From: Natrialba taiwanensis DSM 12281
GTDB taxonomy: Archaea > Halobacteriota > Halobacteria > Halobacteriales > Natrialbaceae
Direction: 5' to 3'
DNA: 45,166 bases
Assembly (NCBI RefSeq): GCF_000337595.1
Contig: NZ_AOIL01000016.1
Span: 30,327-75,492 of the forward strand
The notes beneath the pieces were generated by a model. That model worked only from the letters and a program-made list of their open reading frames with translations, was not told the DNA's origin and ran no database searches. The position numbers and the translations under genes are program-made. This document shows, piece after piece, positions 37,155 through 43,874 of the stretch; the first letter of the stretch is position 1, and each line of letters begins with the position of its first letter.

Positions 37155-37180
37155 GAATTCTATAATGGTATATAGAATTC
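37155..37180. repeat. Perfect 10-bp inverted repeat
   Basis: Arms GAATTCTATA and TATAGAATTC with spacer ATGGTA. It stands alone in gene-free DNA about 330 bp from the transposase stop. It could be an operator, a hairpin terminator or an insertion scar. Confidence 0.6.
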
Positions 37181-37506
37181 TCCGGCAGTAGATGAGGCTG
37201 GACGTTCGATGCATACGATGGGACATCCTAAAACACGACATTGGTCTCGGTCACACTCGTCTTACAGCGTGGATCGAGGATAATTGCCATGAATTATACT
37301 ATGGTTCTTCAGGAAAAGCTGAAGTCGGCTAGGTGGCCAGCCAATGCACGGACTGCCTATTCATTCCGATTACTTTTTCGATGTACCGAAGAAGCCAGCG
37401 ATAGTATTGGGTCGTGGTCTCAGAATCGGGCTTGCAGCGCATGAGATAAACAGCTATCTGACAGCACTGCCGCTCACGAATCGGGCGAACACGGGAGATA
37501 TCGGCG

Positions 37507-39336
37507 TCAATCAGGCGGGTCGAGACCGTAGAACTGCTTGGCAACGGTCAGAAACTGGTTCGCATCGACGCGCGGTGCGTACGACGTGTTCTCGCCGTCG
37601 ATGGCGAGCTTCACCAGCAGATCGACCAGCCGCCAAACGTTATACAGCACGCATGCAAACACGAAATTGAAGAACCGATAGTCGCGTTCGATTGAAGTGG
37701 TTCGCACCATGAAGTGCTTCTGCTTCTTGAAGCCGTTCTCAATACCCCAACGACGGCGATACCATCGGATGAGCCGCTCGATCATGTGGACGAACGCCTT
37801 TCCGTTCATCCGCTGATCGTCGGCATCACCGGCGGTTACGTAGGGATGATTCGTCTCAAACACGACGGTCCCGGCGGTGTCTACGTCTCCCTCCTGTGCT
37901 TTCTGCTTCCGCTCTTCGATTTCTTCTTCCCGCTGAATGTCTGCGAGCAACCGCGAGAACGACATCCCCTCGCTCGGTTCGCCTTCCACGTCCTCGAACT
38001 CCCACTCACCGCACATCTCCGTCCATACTGCTGAAAGATCGTTGTCTCCCTCCTCGTCGTCGTCCGAATTCGATTGCTTCGGGAGGTAGACCTGCTTGCG
38101 CGTGGGTGTCCCATCGTCGGCTTTCTCCTCCGTGACATGGAACCGTTCGCCGTTACGGTACATCCACGCGATGGTGTCTGCTTCGTCGCTATTGGCGAAG
38201 ATGCGCGTGGGATTCAGATAGTGAACGTCGTACTCCTCGCAGGTGTCCTTGACCGGATCGCTATCGAACTCCCGATCCATCATCACGAGGTCGATGTCGA
38301 CCATCTCGGTCGCCTGCGACAGGAGCTTCTCAACGATCGCGTCTTTCGACTGTCCGCGCACGCGCGGGATGGCATCGAGAACCAGCGGCACGTCCATCCC
38401 GACGATTTTCAGCACCGCCCACTGGTAGTACTCGTTGCCGTCTTTGTACCCGAGGATGTCGTCCTCGTGGTCCTCTACGTCGCCGGTGAACGGGAATCCC
38501 TTGGTCACGTCGATGGCCGCAAAGACCGGCCCATCGAGTTCACCGTGTTGACGGGCACGGGCGATCAGCATCCGCGTCGTGTCTCGCAGCATCTCCCGAA
38601 TCTCCGCGACGGAGAGCTTCCCGATCTGGTAGCGATGAGTCGATCCCGCCGGGATGCGCTCGCGCGTCGTATCGAGTGAGAACGATGCCGGGCCGCTGCG
38701 GGCGTACATGTCCTCGCGCATCCCTATGTAGGCGTGTTGCTCCCAGAAGGCGTTCTCGTGGATCTGCCAGTTCGGCCCGCGATCAAGCGCGAACGCGTCG
38801 GCTACGAATGGTTTGGCCTGCTGCCACACCTCGTCGGTCTTCTGGGCGACGAGCTGGTGTTTGGGAGGATTGTCGGCTTCGGATCCATCCGCTCCGTCGG
38901 TGCCGATCCGGTCGGGAAGCGGAACCTCGTAGGCACGCGCGGTCCTCACAATTACGTCGGCACAATCGTGTACGCCATCACGGAGTTTCTCGCTGAAGCG
39001 TTCGTTCCATGCGCGCCAGAACGTCGATTGATTCGGGAGCGTCTTGAAGCCGAGATTCTGACGCAGCGAAGGGTGTTCTCTGAGGTAGTCGTAGAGGGCG
39101 GTTTCATCCCAGCCGTTGATCTCCGTGAGCAGGCCGGCTCGAACGTGGACCGTCATCGGGTACGGTCCCGCGTACGGAGCGGACGCATCGTGTGTGGCGA
39201 ACGTGAGATGATCGATCGGGAGATGGCAGATCAGCATCTCGATGTCGTCGTAGCTTTCCCACCGCTCGCACTGTGACTGCACGATGGTCGTGACATCCGC
39301 AACGAATCCGTCGAGATGGTCGTCTGCCCCTTCCAT
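37507..39336 (-). CDS. IS4-superfamily DDE transposase
   Basis: A 609-aa transposase. The DDE core is intact: first Asp in AAIDVTKGFPF, second Asp in LVMMDREFDSDP, and Glu in YRRRWGIENGFKKQK, which fits the IS4 signature Y-x2-R-x3-E-x6-K exactly. An acidic insertion (SNSDDDEEGDNDLS) sits between the second Asp and the Glu. There is no frameshift or stop, so the protein may be active. ATG 39336 (MEGADDHLDGF) is preferred; the frame extends to 39420 only by running into the next gene. I could not find terminal inverted repeats or a target duplication. Right next to its start is a TCTCACGTGAGA palindrome. The IS group name is not known to me. Confidence 0.88.
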   Translation of the reverse strand: MEGADDHLDGFVADVTTIVQSQCERWESYDDIEMLICHLPIDHLTFATHDASAPYAGPYPMTVHVRAGLLTEINGWDETALYDYLREHPSLRQNLGFKTLPNQSTFWRAWNERFSEKLRDGVHDCADVIVRTARAYEVPLPDRIGTDGADGSEADNPPKHQLVAQKTDEVWQQAKPFVADAFALDRGPNWQIHENAFWEQHAYIGMREDMYARSGPASFSLDTTRERIPAGSTHRYQIGKLSVAEIREMLRDTTRMLIARARQHGELDGPVFAAIDVTKGFPFTGDVEDHEDDILGYKDGNEYYQWAVLKIVGMDVPLVLDAIPRVRGQSKDAIVEKLLSQATEMVDIDLVMMDREFDSDPVKDTCEEYDVHYLNPTRIFANSDEADTIAWMYRNGERFHVTEEKADDGTPTRKQVYLPKQSNSDDDEEGDNDLSAVWTEMCGEWEFEDVEGEPSEGMSFSRLLADIQREEEIEERKQKAQEGDVDTAGTVVFETNHPYVTAGDADDQRMNGKAFVHMIERLIRWYRRRWGIENGFKKQKHFMVRTTSIERDYRFFNFVFACVLYNVWRLVDLLVKLAIDGENTSYAPRVDANQFLTVAKQFYGLDPPD

Positions 39337-39348
39337 TCTCACGTGAGA
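39337..39348. promoter_or_regulatory. 12-bp perfect palindrome at the transposase start
   Basis: TCTCACGTGAGA directly abuts the ATG at 39336. It may be an operator or part of the element's end. Confidence 0.4.
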
Positions 39349-39353
39349 CACTC

Positions 39354-39890
39354 CTATCCCTTGGGCCAGATCGTGTAGCTGAATGACCAGACAAAATCGA
39401 TCGCAAGGATGACACCCCACAATTTTGCCATCTCCGTTAACACTCTCGTTCTGTCAAAATCACCTACGAGTGCAACAGCCCCGAGAAGCAGAGCGCAGCC
39501 GATTATCCAAGCGAGAAAGTGCCGTCCCCACTGATGGCGTTCATGTTGAGCGTGCGCTCGACCCGTCTTCGGTGGTTTTGTGGGTGGTGGACCATCAGCG
39601 AACCAGTAGGAGAATCGTTCATCGGCCCAGCGGATTAGGCGATGGCCAAAAGCGACAGAAACTCCGATATATATCGCGGCTAACCCATGGGCAGAGGTTG
39701 CAGTTCCCCCATTATTGAGGTCGATTACAGTAAACGTCAGTAAGAGCAAATCAACAAGCGGGACGCCTGCCAGTAGCACTGTACTCAGCCGTTGCTGGCC
39801 GAGGAGATATCGAGTAGAGAGCCCTGCAAGAAGCACGACCCAGAACCCAATCTCACAGCCGATGATAGCGACGTAAATCAGATCGCTCAT
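39354..39890 (-). CDS. Membrane protein of unknown function
   Basis: A 178-aa protein with about five membrane helices (first VAIIGCEIGFWVVLLAGLST, then VLLAGVPLVDLLLLTFTVID, and HFLAWIIGCALLLGAVALVG). A histidine/proline-rich loop (GPPPTKPPKTGRAHAQHERH) separates helices 3 and 4. The C-terminus WSFSYTIWPKG is complete and ends 17 bp from the transposase ATG. No family is recognised. Base composition is like the accessory stretch, lower in GC than the flanking modules. Confidence 0.7.
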   Translation of the reverse strand: MSDLIYVAIIGCEIGFWVVLLAGLSTRYLLGQQRLSTVLLAGVPLVDLLLLTFTVIDLNNGGTATSAHGLAAIYIGVSVAFGHRLIRWADERFSYWFADGPPPTKPPKTGRAHAQHERHQWGRHFLAWIIGCALLLGAVALVGDFDRTRVLTEMAKLWGVILAIDFVWSFSYTIWPKG

Positions 39891-40021
39891 ACCTAACTAA
39901 TGCGGACGGGAGTGTGTGGAGTTACTGCCATGCATGCTCGGCAAGTTTAAGAGTATATGTCCTGCAATATCGAGTGAGATATGAGATACACTTCTTTACA
40001 CACATCATTGAGTATTTATTT

Positions 40022-40669
40022 ATGAGATATGTGACCCTGGTCATCGACCCGAGTGACGCTCACGAGACATTCAACGAACTGAGACAAGTACAGGTAGATA
40101 ACGAAGTGATTGCAACATATGAAGAGATCTATGATCTCAATCCGCTCGATGATGGAACTGCTGTCGAGTTGGTTCGACTCACTGGCGATATCGAACGGTT
40201 TGCGAGAAGCACGTCAGAGCTGGGAGATGTGTCGGTCATACCCACGAGCGAAACAGGGTTTGTATACATACACTTGAATCCCGGAAACCTCGACACGGCG
40301 CTCATCGACATCATCGATACTCATAAGATTACTGTGGACTGGCCAGTCAGATATACCAATCGGGGTTTTCAACTTACGCTCCTCGGTGAAGACATATCTC
40401 TCCAACACGTCGTCGCGGATCTCTCCGAAATTGTAGACGTGACGATTGAAAAAACGGGTGACTACCATCCCGGAATGCGCGATCCCGCATGGCACCTGAC
40501 AGACCGTCAAATTGAGGTCGTGCGCGCTGCAATCAATGGAGGATATTATGATCTCCCTCGGAAGGCTGGTCAGCGTGATCTCGCGGCCAAACTCGAACTC
40601 TCGCGAGGTACAGTCGCCGAGCATCTCCGAAAGGCCGAAGCAAGGGTGATGCAGGAAGTGGTGAAGTGA
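40022..40669 (+). CDS. HTH_10 (bacterio-opsin activator-type) regulator (1)
   Basis: A 215-aa regulator. The C-terminal 55 residues are the HTH_10 domain: LTDRQIEVVRAAINGGYYDL then RDLAAKLELSRGTVAEHLRKAEAR. The N-terminal 155 residues are the ligand-sensing region usual for such proteins (MRYVTLVIDPSD..., DDGTAVELVRLTGDIERF). ATG 40022 is preferred to the open frame from 39914 because MRYVTL matches the start of the second HTH_10 protein (MRSLRL). The second protein (42153-42800) has the same 215-aa length and layout, so the two are paralogues. Targets unknown. Confidence 0.88.
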   Translation: MRYVTLVIDPSDAHETFNELRQVQVDNEVIATYEEIYDLNPLDDGTAVELVRLTGDIERFARSTSELGDVSVIPTSETGFVYIHLNPGNLDTALIDIIDTHKITVDWPVRYTNRGFQLTLLGEDISLQHVVADLSEIVDVTIEKTGDYHPGMRDPAWHLTDRQIEVVRAAINGGYYDLPRKAGQRDLAAKLELSRGTVAEHLRKAEARVMQEVVK

Positions 40670-40691
40670 AAGCACTCGCATACTGTTTTAG

Positions 40692-40740
40692 CTGAAGTTA
40701 GGCAGGTAGATTGCTCATGCACGGCTTGGCTCGAAATCTA
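40692..40740 (-). repeat. 50-bp repeat, inverted copy L
   Basis: Starts CTGAAGTTAGGCAGGTAGAT and ends CGAAATCTA. Compared base by base with the reverse complement of copy c (43597-43646) it matches at 39 of 49 positions with no gaps, so it is the left inverted partner of that copy. Confidence 0.75.
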
Positions 40741-40750
40741 TACCGATAGT

Positions 40751-40800
40751 CTAAATTTCGCAGATGGTTGTGCATGACGAATCTAACTAGCCGACCTCTG
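40751..40800 (+). repeat. 50-bp repeat, copy a
   Basis: Begins CTAAATTTCG, then 10 variable bases, then TGCATGACGA, and ends CCGACCTCTG. With copy L it forms an inverted pair about 110 bp long. Confidence 0.7.
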
Positions 40801-40831
40801 TTCATGATGAATATTGGAACCAATCGATGGC

Positions 40832-40881
40832 CTAAATTTCGTAGGTAGCTATGCATGACGAACCGACCTAGCCGAGTTCAG
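40832..40881 (+). repeat. 50-bp repeat, copy b
   Basis: Begins CTAAATTTCG, 10 variable bases, TGCATGACGA, and ends CCGAGTTCAG. It lies directly in front of the CPBP gene's stop side. Confidence 0.7.
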
Positions 40882-40897
40882 ATTAGAACGGAAAGAA

Positions 40898-41779
40898 TCA
40901 GCTTTCCTGCTGACGGTTTCCCAAGCGTTCCATCCAACCAGGCAGCCGGGTGCTGGCGAGTGTTCGTGAGTCCCAGATAAGAGAGAGTGCAAGGGCTAGG
41001 CCTGCGATGAGCAGCGTGTCGATAAGCCACGCATCAAATGAGTTCCTCGGGAACAAGGTGAACATGACGTTGAGGATGGCGTGACACACAACGACTGCGA
41101 AAACGCTGTTTCTCGTGTTGTTGTACAACCAGACCAGCACCACCCGCACCCCCACCAGGTGGAGAGATGCCAAAGCGATCACCAGCGTCGAGTGGCCAAG
41201 ATGCAGCGGAATATGCAATATTGCCCAGATCACTCCCAAGAAAATACTGGCACGGAGCGCCCCCCATCGCTCCTGCATCGGATCGATAACGTATCCCATC
41301 CATCCCAGTTCTTCACCTAAAGCAAAGATAACGAACACGCCGAAAAAGAGCAGTGTCGATACTACCGAGAACTGTGGAAGAGAGTGTGGCAATCCCAATA
41401 ACTGCATCAATCCATATCGCACAACCACCACGCCAGGCAGTAATAGTACAACGGGAATATACCAGATCGTCGGTCTGATTTGCTTATAATCGACGGACCG
41501 TCCCAGTAGAGAGGTCACAGCTGCAGTACCATCCGTTTTGTAGACGAGTATTACAGCGGCTATCGCTGGGCAAATGGCCGCAAGTACGGTCACGGGGGTT
41601 CTTGGGAACAGGTATGTGTTTGTCGCCAACCCGAATATCAAAAACGGGAGGAAAAGCGTGAACACCAGCACGAAGAACGTCAACGGTGACCGCCCTGACA
41701 GGTTGGAGCTTGCGAAACTCCCATCAGCAGACGAACGAAATGATGGCCTCGATGACTCCTGTTGCTCGTCACCAGTCAT
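40898..41779 (-). CDS. CPBP-family intramembrane metalloprotease-like protein
   Basis: A 293-aa membrane protein with about eight hydrophobic segments. CPBP motifs: the Glu pair at E156-E157 (FALGEELGWMGY), FxxxH-like WAILHIPLH with H189, and VVCHAILNVMF with the third His. The Arg that normally follows the Glu pair (EExxxR, usually WRG) is Met161, so the protease motif is incomplete. CPBP proteins process prenylated or membrane proteins and often accompany peptide or immunity genes. The N-terminus is polar and acidic (30 residues). It belongs to the segment bracketed by the 50-bp repeats. Confidence 0.8.
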   Translation of the reverse strand: MTGDEQQESSRPSFRSSADGSFASSNLSGRSPLTFFVLVFTLFLPFLIFGLATNTYLFPRTPVTVLAAICPAIAAVILVYKTDGTAAVTSLLGRSVDYKQIRPTIWYIPVVLLLPGVVVVRYGLMQLLGLPHSLPQFSVVSTLLFFGVFVIFALGEELGWMGYVIDPMQERWGALRASIFLGVIWAILHIPLHLGHSTLVIALASLHLVGVRVVLVWLYNNTRNSVFAVVVCHAILNVMFTLFPRNSFDAWLIDTLLIAGLALALSLIWDSRTLASTRLPGWMERLGNRQQES

Positions 41780-42152
41780 GCGCGTTCCTCATTAGGGTTA
41801 TGTCCACAGGTCGCTCAAAGCGCGCGACGAGATATTGATCGGCGATGCCATAGCTACCTTGCTTTGGCTGGGCAAGCTACACAATTCACTCTGTACAGCT
41901 GTGAACAGAGGGTCCGCAATCACAGCTGTTTCTCTGGATCGATTCATGGTTCGTACTGTCAGATAGACCATATCGGTACTGAGAGAAGCGATCCGATGAC
42001 ACTTCCGTCAGATATTGGGGGGAGTTTAAGTCGGGTCGAGTTATGTACTGACTCGCGCTTGGCCAGCAGTGGGATACCGATATCAGGTTTTCTGCGGCGA
42101 CCATCTCGCCGAATGCTCCGAGTTTAAAGACGTGGAACCCGTTCGTAGCTTC
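41780..42152. other. Divergent intergenic region between CPBP and HTH_10 genes
   Basis: About 370 bp. It contains the promoters of both genes; a TTTAAA box at 42123-42128 lies 25 bp before the HTH_10 ATG. No gene or repeat is recognised. Confidence 0.55.
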
Positions 42153-42800
42153 ATGCGTAGTCTTCGTCTCACTGTTTCCGAAGACGACCTCTCGCCAAGT
42201 CCCGCAGTTACTCGGGGAGCTATCCTGAACATGCGACTACTGCCCGACGGAACGATGGTTGAGCTCTATCGTGCCGAGGGTGATGTGGACGCACTCATAA
42301 CGGAGCTCGATGGTGATCCCAGTTGTCTACAATACGAGATCTGTGGCCGCAACGAACGAGAATGCTACCTCTACAACCACTGTCGCCCCGATGAACAATT
42401 GCGACATCTGCATTCGATTTTGGATAGACACGCCCTGATGGTCGACCTACCAATTCGAATCGAGACTGGGGTCGGCGTGACGATTCGTATTGTCGGCCCC
42501 GAAACCCAACTGTACGACGCATTTCACGCGTTTCCGGAAACGATCCGGGCCAATATGACGATCGAGAATATCGGCTCGTATGTGCCGGAGACACCCGAAA
42601 TCCGTTCCGTTCTCACCAACCGCCAGCTCGAAGTGATTGAGGCCGCTATTGCAGTCGGTTACTATGCGACGCCCCGCACCGCAACTGCGGCGGACGTTGC
42701 AGAACGGATCGGGTGCGCACGAAGCACAGCCTCTGAGCATCTACGGAACGGTGAAGCACGTCTCATAATGGCACTTCCTACTGGGTCACAAACGAGGTAG
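42153..42800 (+). CDS. HTH_10 (bacterio-opsin activator-type) regulator (2)
   Basis: A 215-aa paralogue of the regulator at 40022. C-terminal HTH_10: LTNRQLEVIEAAIAVGYYAT then DVAERIGCARSTASEHLRNG. N-terminal region: MRSLRLTVSEDD, DGTMVELYRAEGDVDAL, CYLYNHCRPDEQ. ATG 42153 is chosen over 42069 because it aligns with the other protein's start and has a TTTAAA box 25 bp upstream. It is 133 bp upstream of the methyltransferase gene and divergent from CPBP, so both are possible targets. It lies inside the repeat-bracketed segment. Confidence 0.88.
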   Translation: MRSLRLTVSEDDLSPSPAVTRGAILNMRLLPDGTMVELYRAEGDVDALITELDGDPSCLQYEICGRNERECYLYNHCRPDEQLRHLHSILDRHALMVDLPIRIETGVGVTIRIVGPETQLYDAFHAFPETIRANMTIENIGSYVPETPEIRSVLTNRQLEVIEAAIAVGYYATPRTATAADVAERIGCARSTASEHLRNGEARLIMALPTGSQTR

Positions 42801-42933
42801 TCCACCATTCCAGTCTATCCATATCCCCCGCTCTGAGGGCAAGTAACTTCGAAACCGCTGTCGTTTAAACCTCCATCACTATCTGGAAGAGGTCTCTTTG
42901 TGGAACAGTACCTTCTCACAACTACCAGATCAT

Positions 42934-43581
42934 ATGAACCACCCAGATCGAGATTCGACTGTGGATGCCCACCCTGTGTTCGCGGCTGTCTATGACTTCC
43001 AAGGGCGCTGGAGAGAAGAGAGGTTCATGCGCAAACATCGCCAGTATCTCGCAGAAGACCTTCATGGCTCCGTCTTGGATATCGGACCCGGTACAGGTGA
43101 TATGTTTCCCTACTTCAAAAAAGCAGCAGAGCGCGACCGCTCACTCCAGTTTCATGGAATCGAACCCGACCCACATATGCGAAAGCGTGCCAAGAAACGT
43201 GCCACAGAAACCGGGATATCCATCGATCTTCGCTCAGGCAGGGCTGAGTCGCTCCCCTATGAAGACAAGCGGTTCGATGTAGTCCTCGCCTGCTCGGTAC
43301 TCTGTACCGTTTCTGATGTCGAACAGACGCTGAAAGAGATTCACCGCGTGCTGAAACCGAGTGGAGAGCTACGGTTCTGCGAACATGTGCGTTCAGACGG
43401 GTTAATCGGCCGATTCCAAGATACGATCAATCCTCTCTGGAAGCGGTTCACCGCTGGATGTCATCTCAATCGCCAGACTGAGAAAACGATGAGAAAAAGC
43501 CCTCTCGAAATAGCTGAAATCGACTATATCGACAGCAGATTCCAACCAATAAAACGAGGGAAGACTATCCGAAGGAACTAG
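42934..43581 (+). CDS. Class I SAM-dependent methyltransferase (UbiE/Methyltransf_11 type)
   Basis: A 215-aa methyltransferase. Motif I VLDIGPGTGDMF (residues 47-58), the acidic end of strand 2 HGIEPDP, a motif-III/IV region RFDVVLACSVLCTVSD and the post-motif HRVLKPSGELRFCEHV are all in order, so the AdoMet fold is complete. The C-terminal 60 residues (FTAGCHLNRQTEK) may bind the substrate, which could be a lipid, quinone or small molecule. ATG 42934 is preferred to 42898 because MNHPDRDST starts the usual N-terminal segment. It ends 15 bp before repeat copy c. Confidence 0.88.
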   Translation: MNHPDRDSTVDAHPVFAAVYDFQGRWREERFMRKHRQYLAEDLHGSVLDIGPGTGDMFPYFKKAAERDRSLQFHGIEPDPHMRKRAKKRATETGISIDLRSGRAESLPYEDKRFDVVLACSVLCTVSDVEQTLKEIHRVLKPSGELRFCEHVRSDGLIGRFQDTINPLWKRFTAGCHLNRQTEKTMRKSPLEIAEIDYIDSRFQPIKRGKTIRRN

Positions 43582-43596
43582 CGATAATCGAGAGAC

Positions 43597-43646
43597 TAAA
43601 TTTCGGTCAGTGGCGTGCATGACGAATCTACCTGCCTGACTTCAGA
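43597..43646 (+). repeat. 50-bp repeat, copy c (right boundary)
   Basis: Begins CTAAATTTCG, 10 variable bases, then TGCATGACGA, ATCTACCTGC and CTGACTTCAG. It is the inverted counterpart of copy L at 40692-40740 (39 of 49 identical), enclosing about 2.85 kb. Confidence 0.75.
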
Positions 43647-43874
43647 GGAAAAGGATATTCTCAGCCTGGATTTCGAAACCGCCTCCTCACTAATGAAGGG
43701 GTCGGGCGGTACCGCCGAACGAGGATGGGATGGTATCGGCAGTTCCATCCAATCGTCTGCGTGTTTGCTATCACTAACGCAGAATCGGCCTGTGAGGAAC
43801 GCTACCATATTCAGAGCGTTTCAACACGGTATTTGGAAAGCGAAGCGATCGAACGGAACCGCCTTTTCGGACGG
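43647..43874. other. Short gene-free gap after the repeat-bracketed segment
   Basis: About 230 bp between repeat copy c and the DUF4097 gene. Short open frames cross it, but none has a promoter or recognisable content. Confidence 0.45.

Follow-up and report, generated by a model that had tools for sequence, protein, structure and literature searches.

Positions 37319–43645 of the window (the whole stretch of 45,166 nucleotides from Natrialba taiwanensis DSM 12281 analysed here) very probably constitute, judging from their sequence, a single ISH7-like DDE transposon with passenger genes, inserted in the remnant of another transposase gene with duplication of 8 bp. The unit holds, in this order, the transposase, a membrane protein, an HTH_10 regulator, internal 109-bp elements, a CPBP protein, a second HTH_10 regulator, and a methyltransferase. 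The repeats that drew attention to this region are genuine, yet the mobile unit exceeds the segment first drawn around them: that segment, 40692–43645, is best described as the distal cargo module (CPBP, HTH_10, and methyltransferase) of the larger transposon. Target duplications and empty sites support the view that a haloarchaeal IS-type transposase would move multi-gene cargo of 3.8–20.7 kb. This cargo includes a copper-resistance set shared by two plasmids, and its movement would represent a gene-exchange route between plasmids and chromosomes.

Ends, Target Duplication, and Empty Site

The transposase-side terminal repeat (RE, CTGAAGTCGGCTAGGTGGCCAGCCAATGCACGG) occupies 37319–37351 (+ strand), a position like that of the sharp 3′ ends of related IS copies. 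The distal end (LE; 43588–43645, + strand) is formed by the right half of a 109-bp element (model positions 52–109) with its terminus at 43645, and the duplication starts at the next base. Both ends have CTGAAGTC, AGGT, and ATGCACG in common, with only about 21 of 33 bases alike. The sequence AGGAAAAG lies at 37311–37318 and is repeated exactly at 43646–43653; among six possible end pairs, 37319/43645 is the sole match to show an exact 8-bp duplication, the other five having none. Because AGGAAAAG outside 37319 recurs only outside 43645, 37319–43645 was taken as one unit of 6,327 bp. Distal ends at 40800 or 40881 were also considered for the window and dropped, as no duplication is found there.

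The target is represented by the interrupted transposase-gene remnant, with its left part at 37254–37318 and its continuation at 43654–43820 (both on the + strand). When these flanks are joined with one copy of AGGAAAAG, they align without a break to a genome of the same genus (G002), with 89% identity over 141 bp, in a match that stops approximately 10 bp beyond the junction. The joined flanks also align across the junction, at about 68–70%, to the intact 3′ end of a transposase gene in many genomes. Since the joined flanks align to an uninterrupted transposase gene, these sites are considered empty sites, and the transposon is therefore placed within a transposase-gene remnant.

The first-pass annotation had described four 50-bp copies with two fixed blocks around three genes, and had proposed a passenger unit moved by a transposase supplied elsewhere. 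Part of this description stands. The motif CTAAATTTCG-N10-TGCATGACGA has three exact copies in the window (at 40751, 40832, and 43596) and none in any of 100 shuffles, although the blocks of the inverted left copy are inexact. The outer copies, previously scored as matching at 39 of 49 positions, are indeed inverted repeats of 49 nt (40692–40740 and 43597–43645), 80% complementary, a closer match than that of the 37319/43645 ends, and none of the three genes between them encodes a transposase. These features would suit a non-autonomous unit of 2.95 kb (40692–43645) moved in trans, but such a unit is very unlikely: its borders show no target duplication (ctgttttag/aggaaaagg), and the duplication and the empty site, the two checks that the annotation had proposed, were both found for 37319–43645 instead. 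The genes do appear to ride in a mobile unit whose end is the right-hand repeat, but its left limit was misplaced. The functional left end, 37319, lies outside that segment and is none of the four noted copies, and the transposase gene is located within the same unit, approximately 1.3 kb to the left of the first repeat.

The ISH7-Like Transposase and Its Passenger Genes

The transposase gene (37507–39420, − strand) has an intact frame of 637 aa with a match to Pfam DDE_Tnp_1 (E = 1e-7), and its true start is probably located downstream of 39420, near 39333. The protein exhibits 76–86% identity to transposases on plasmids of Halalkalicoccus, Halococcus, Halocatena, and Natrinema, and 45% to the annotated ISH7B (ISNCY) transposase on pNRC100 of Halobacterium salinarum; in the NCBIfam search, no transposase model scored above its cut-off, the best being ISH3 with 64 of 225 bits. 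Copies of the transposase have a well-defined terminus, roughly 190 bp beyond the gene, at CTGATGTCGGCTAGGT...ATGCACGG, and the same terminus is found on the 109-bp element. On the other hand, the side upstream of the transposase varies between copies because the passengers sit there. These variable 5′ borders had suggested an IS with a single defined end, a possibility that was dropped once distal ends and duplications were found; distal ends have been located in the related elements L131–L133, of which the ISH7-like L131 shows a 7-bp duplication (TCACGGC).

The window transposon resembles ISH7 and ISH7B (ISNCY-like in the NCBI annotation) in this homologous DDE transposase, in a sharp 3′ end starting with CTGATGT, and in the variable DNA upstream of the transposase; alike terminal repeats and a short target duplication also agree with an ISH7-like (ISNCY) assignment. 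However, it belongs to a different subfamily. The search for cargo, internal 109-bp ends, and free MITEs covered the subfamily of the window, in which all three were found. No open paper on the structure of ISH7 or on such haloarchaeal cargo transposons was found in a literature search of partial coverage, which is weak evidence for novelty.

The passenger genes are arranged in two modules divided by the internal 109-bp copies at 40692–40881. Module 1, beside the transposase, holds an ORF for a predicted membrane protein of 178 aa (39354–39890, − strand), with no Pfam or NCBIfam match, and an HVO_0513_N-HTH_10 regulator identified by Pfam (HTH1; 40022–40669, + strand). Both are conserved at the L117 locus of Halocatena marina (97 and 94% identity, respectively), where the 178-aa homologue adjoins the same transposase. 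Module 2 comprises a CPBP/Rce1-like membrane protease (Pfam PF02517; 40898–41779, − strand), a second HVO_0513_N-HTH_10 regulator, also identified by Pfam (HTH2; 42153–42800, + strand), and a class I SAM-dependent methyltransferase (Pfam Methyltransf_11; 42934–43581, + strand). The protease and HTH2 have relatives of 64 and 61% identity, respectively, at the L065 locus of G002, and on plasmids no close relative of the CPBP-HTH_10-methyltransferase module was found. The passengers probably serve in stress or export, together with HTH_10 regulators of their own.

The 109-bp MITE-Like Element

A whole-genome search combined with flank extension revealed that the repeat unit is 109 bp, not 50 bp. 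The element is non-coding, with a length of 104–110 bp and inverted ends (roughly CTGAAGTCAGGCAGGTAGATT.CTCATGCACG ... CTAAATTTCG-N10-TGCATGACGAATC.ACCTAGCCGACYTCWG) that match the right end of the ISH7-like IS. What had been read as the first two 50-bp repeats are not separate repeats, but the arms of one complete internal element (40692–40800, + strand). The third belongs to a second, truncated element directly next to the first (40801–40881, + strand; model positions 27–108), and the fourth corresponds to the right half that forms the distal end of the transposon.

A sequence profile detected about a dozen element sites in this 4.6-Mb genome, and matches in 11 of 125 genomes of the family and, in the search of haloarchaeal genomes that had been proposed, in 30 of 392 genomes of the order; G413 is an example of a genome with many copies. 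No match was found in the phage records searched. All of the unique full elements examined lie outside predicted genes, and the neighbouring gene ends are mostly 3′ ends.

Exact target duplications of 6–7 bp flank 4 of 113 free copies, against 0.15 expected from shuffled flank pairs; most free copies are devoid of duplication, having either lost it or never acquired one, and the duplications of the parent transposon are 7–8 bp long. For one of these four copies (L170 6059), three uninterrupted sites were found, whereas searches for empty sites of single MITEs at a UppP locus and a TetR locus yielded no clean one. The duplications on four copies, together with the uninterrupted sites for one of them, therefore identify the 109-bp element as a MITE of this transposon family, with inverted ends common to the full transposon and duplications similar in length to those of the parent. 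As these flanks show, the MITE moves alone. Whole transposons also have it as their distal end: Halalkalicoccus jeotgali and the C67 unit of this genome have the complete or almost complete element there, and the window has half of it.

An alternative proposal was that the local HTH_10 regulators bind the repeats as conserved sites. At several loci the element starts 0–25 bp from the stop codon of an HTH_10 gene, and these genes are denser near the elements than in control stretches (0.49 versus 0.08 per 10 kb). However, most copies of this dispersed mobile repeat are far from any HTH_10 gene, the elements sit at 3′ rather than 5′ gene ends, and there are copies with target duplications and fixed ends, which makes a binding-site function extremely improbable. 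Several of these transposons carry HTH_10 genes as cargo, and this explains the association of such genes with the element; an HTH_10 gene and a neighbouring membrane protein recur beside the repeats because they are carried as such.

Other short elements of haloarchaea offer a comparison. SMR-A of Haloquadratum walsbyi is a non-coding repeat of approximately 110 bp with prominent terminal inverted repeats, and most of its copies lack a target duplication (PMC3119063). SMR-A copies often adjoin other mobile elements, but no transposon with matching ends was found and their mobilisation was called enigmatic (PMC3119063). Judged by the published description, the 109-bp element is similar in its length, inverted ends, rare duplications, and mobile neighbours. 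Unlike SMR-A, it has ends matching those of an ISH7-like IS, and duplications of 6–7 bp flank a few of its copies. Furthermore, it shows no palindromic target preference of the kind known for SMR-A, whose targets are palindromes of IS605-type elements (4.13 for the joined flanks of 30 elements versus 4.03 for random sites), and an assignment to SMR-A was consequently rejected, even though length and inverted ends agree. Haloarchaeal MITEs such as ISH2, mobilised with ISH8, are short, lack a transposase, and have ends matching those of the mobilising full transposon (PMC10264941). In contrast to these, the 109-bp MITE has a second role, in that complete cargo transposons use it for their distal end. 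The family described here would provide a concrete parent for the class of ~110-bp inverted-repeat elements in archaea.

Other Complete Units and Their Cargo

The same end-pair test uncovered seven further units (3.8–20.7 kb) with exact duplications of 7–8 bp. Two of them are located in this genome (C32, 8,866 bp, and C67, 5,443 bp), and the others in Natrinema sp. SYSU A 869 (5,773 bp), Halocatena marina (3,801 bp), G180 (9,234 bp), and plasmids 1 and 3 of H. jeotgali (NC_014298.1 and NC_014300.1; 20,674 bp each, at L259 2–20675 and L262 2–20675). The two H. jeotgali units are identical base for base and lie in different targets, with duplications of 8 and 7 bp (CTTCTAAT and CTATACT, respectively). 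In a control restricted to 7-mers adjoining the exact end motif, by which 8-bp duplications are missed, the chance-match rate was 1.4e-4; with a fuzzy motif and any position allowed it rose to 6%, the matches found being all on recognised element ends. Four REs with enough upstream sequence (L063, L256, L257, and L258) gave no duplication partner. The compared genomes are mostly drafts, and gene calls at unannotated loci were made in this analysis.

The H. jeotgali transposon carries a copper-resistance load that includes a copper P-type ATPase, another P-type ATPase, and a multicopper oxidase. Among the units, the cargo also includes methyltransferases, aldo/keto reductases, a short-chain dehydrogenase, an MFS exporter, TrmB and HTH_10 regulators, DUF998, a TetR-family regulator, and a PEP-utilising enzyme. 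Several units hold, in addition, a serine recombinase of the resolvase family.

Transporter IS, as generally understood, consist of an IS transposase and two IS-type ends carrying unrelated genes, with a target duplication. This description also fits the units reported here, with unrelated genes between two IS-type ends, one transposase, and a target duplication; the differences are a cargo of up to 20.7 kb, several modules within one unit, and copies of the end element that lie internally, between these modules. With two modules within 37319–43645 and, among its relatives, an identical 20.7-kb unit at two targets, the window transposon, on sequence grounds, works like an IS with passenger genes, which is a known class, its transposase being ISH7-like.

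Proposed Acquisition of Cargo

The L117 locus of Halocatena marina is informative about how modules may be gained. It has the transposase, the 178-aa protein, and the HTH_10 regulator in common with the window, with 91% DNA identity over 38339–40722, and its internal element lies at the same spot, in the opposite orientation. Its distal cargo, however, is DUF998 and not CPBP-HTH_10-methyltransferase, with its own 7-bp duplication at the end. That the internal element is followed in L117 by other distal cargo also argues against the 2.95-kb passenger unit discussed above. In the C32 unit (8.9 kb), internal elements likewise divide gene modules.

In the mechanism that we propose, the transposase would recognise the shared inverted ends and would pair its own fixed end with any suitable distal copy beyond. 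If a MITE landed past neighbouring genes, everything up to it would become cargo, and the former distal end would stay behind as an internal copy. L117 fits this pairing model because it has the same transposase-side module and an element at the same spot, followed by different distal cargo. Under such a mechanism, this would be an accreting transposon family, in which dispersed 109-bp MITEs act as surrogate ends, regulator-plus-transporter modules are added serially, and old ends remain as seams, an interpretation to which we give a little less than an even chance. It would also explain the movement of SMR-type 110-bp repeats; if it is true, ISH7-like transposases would account for their mobility as well. 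The use of a MITE as a spare transposon end provides a testable model of cargo gain.

Alternatively, the elements at 40692–40881 could be MITEs inserted later into an existing transposon, the cargo having been gained otherwise, through recombination or one original capture. This explanation is tenable, if somewhat doubtful. The opposite orientations of the elements at the same internal spot in the window and L117 would agree with it, as would the frequent insertion of MITEs beside transposon ends and beside each other, usually at gene 3′ ends. Nevertheless, the window and L117 cease to be homologous at the internal element, beyond which the distal cargo differs, and later insertion does not readily account for the division of modules by internal elements in the C32 unit too. 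A relationship to integron attC cassettes was also considered and rejected, since the elements occur in both orientations and show no array order.

Additional Sequence Features

It is common for the 109-bp elements to lie directly against one another or against the end of an ISH7-like IS, as though such ends were preferred for insertion (L165 5992–6192, L191 5316–5518, L185 5579–5802, L168 6904–7272, L063 7068–7220, and 40800/40801 in the window). The target of the L170 MITE is a dispersed repeat of approximately 600 bp (L170 6168–6773), also present in L237, L243, and L245. The element begins at the stop codon, or a few bases from it, in several HTH_10 genes that belong to different subfamilies (L014 5001, L077 6965, L182 6187, L194 6154, and L119 1054), and some of these genes have the TGA within the element's CTGA as their stop codon.

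Serine recombinases of the resolvase family are encoded upstream of the transposase at L115 2778–3624, L122 2777–3623, and L009 (11193 onward). In these three loci the recombinase gene is preceded by a palindrome like TTTTCGTATCGATACGAAAA. The homology between copies stops at this palindrome, which may function as a resolution site or as a place where cargo is exchanged. A border upstream of the recombinase gene (RAAAACACC...) was tried as the left end of L115, L122, and L009; it was dropped for L009 and for the copy on H. jeotgali plasmid 1, the true ends of which are further out. A strong palindrome around GAATTCTATAATGGTATATAGAATTC is also found in the window at 37157–37191, just to the left of the transposon.
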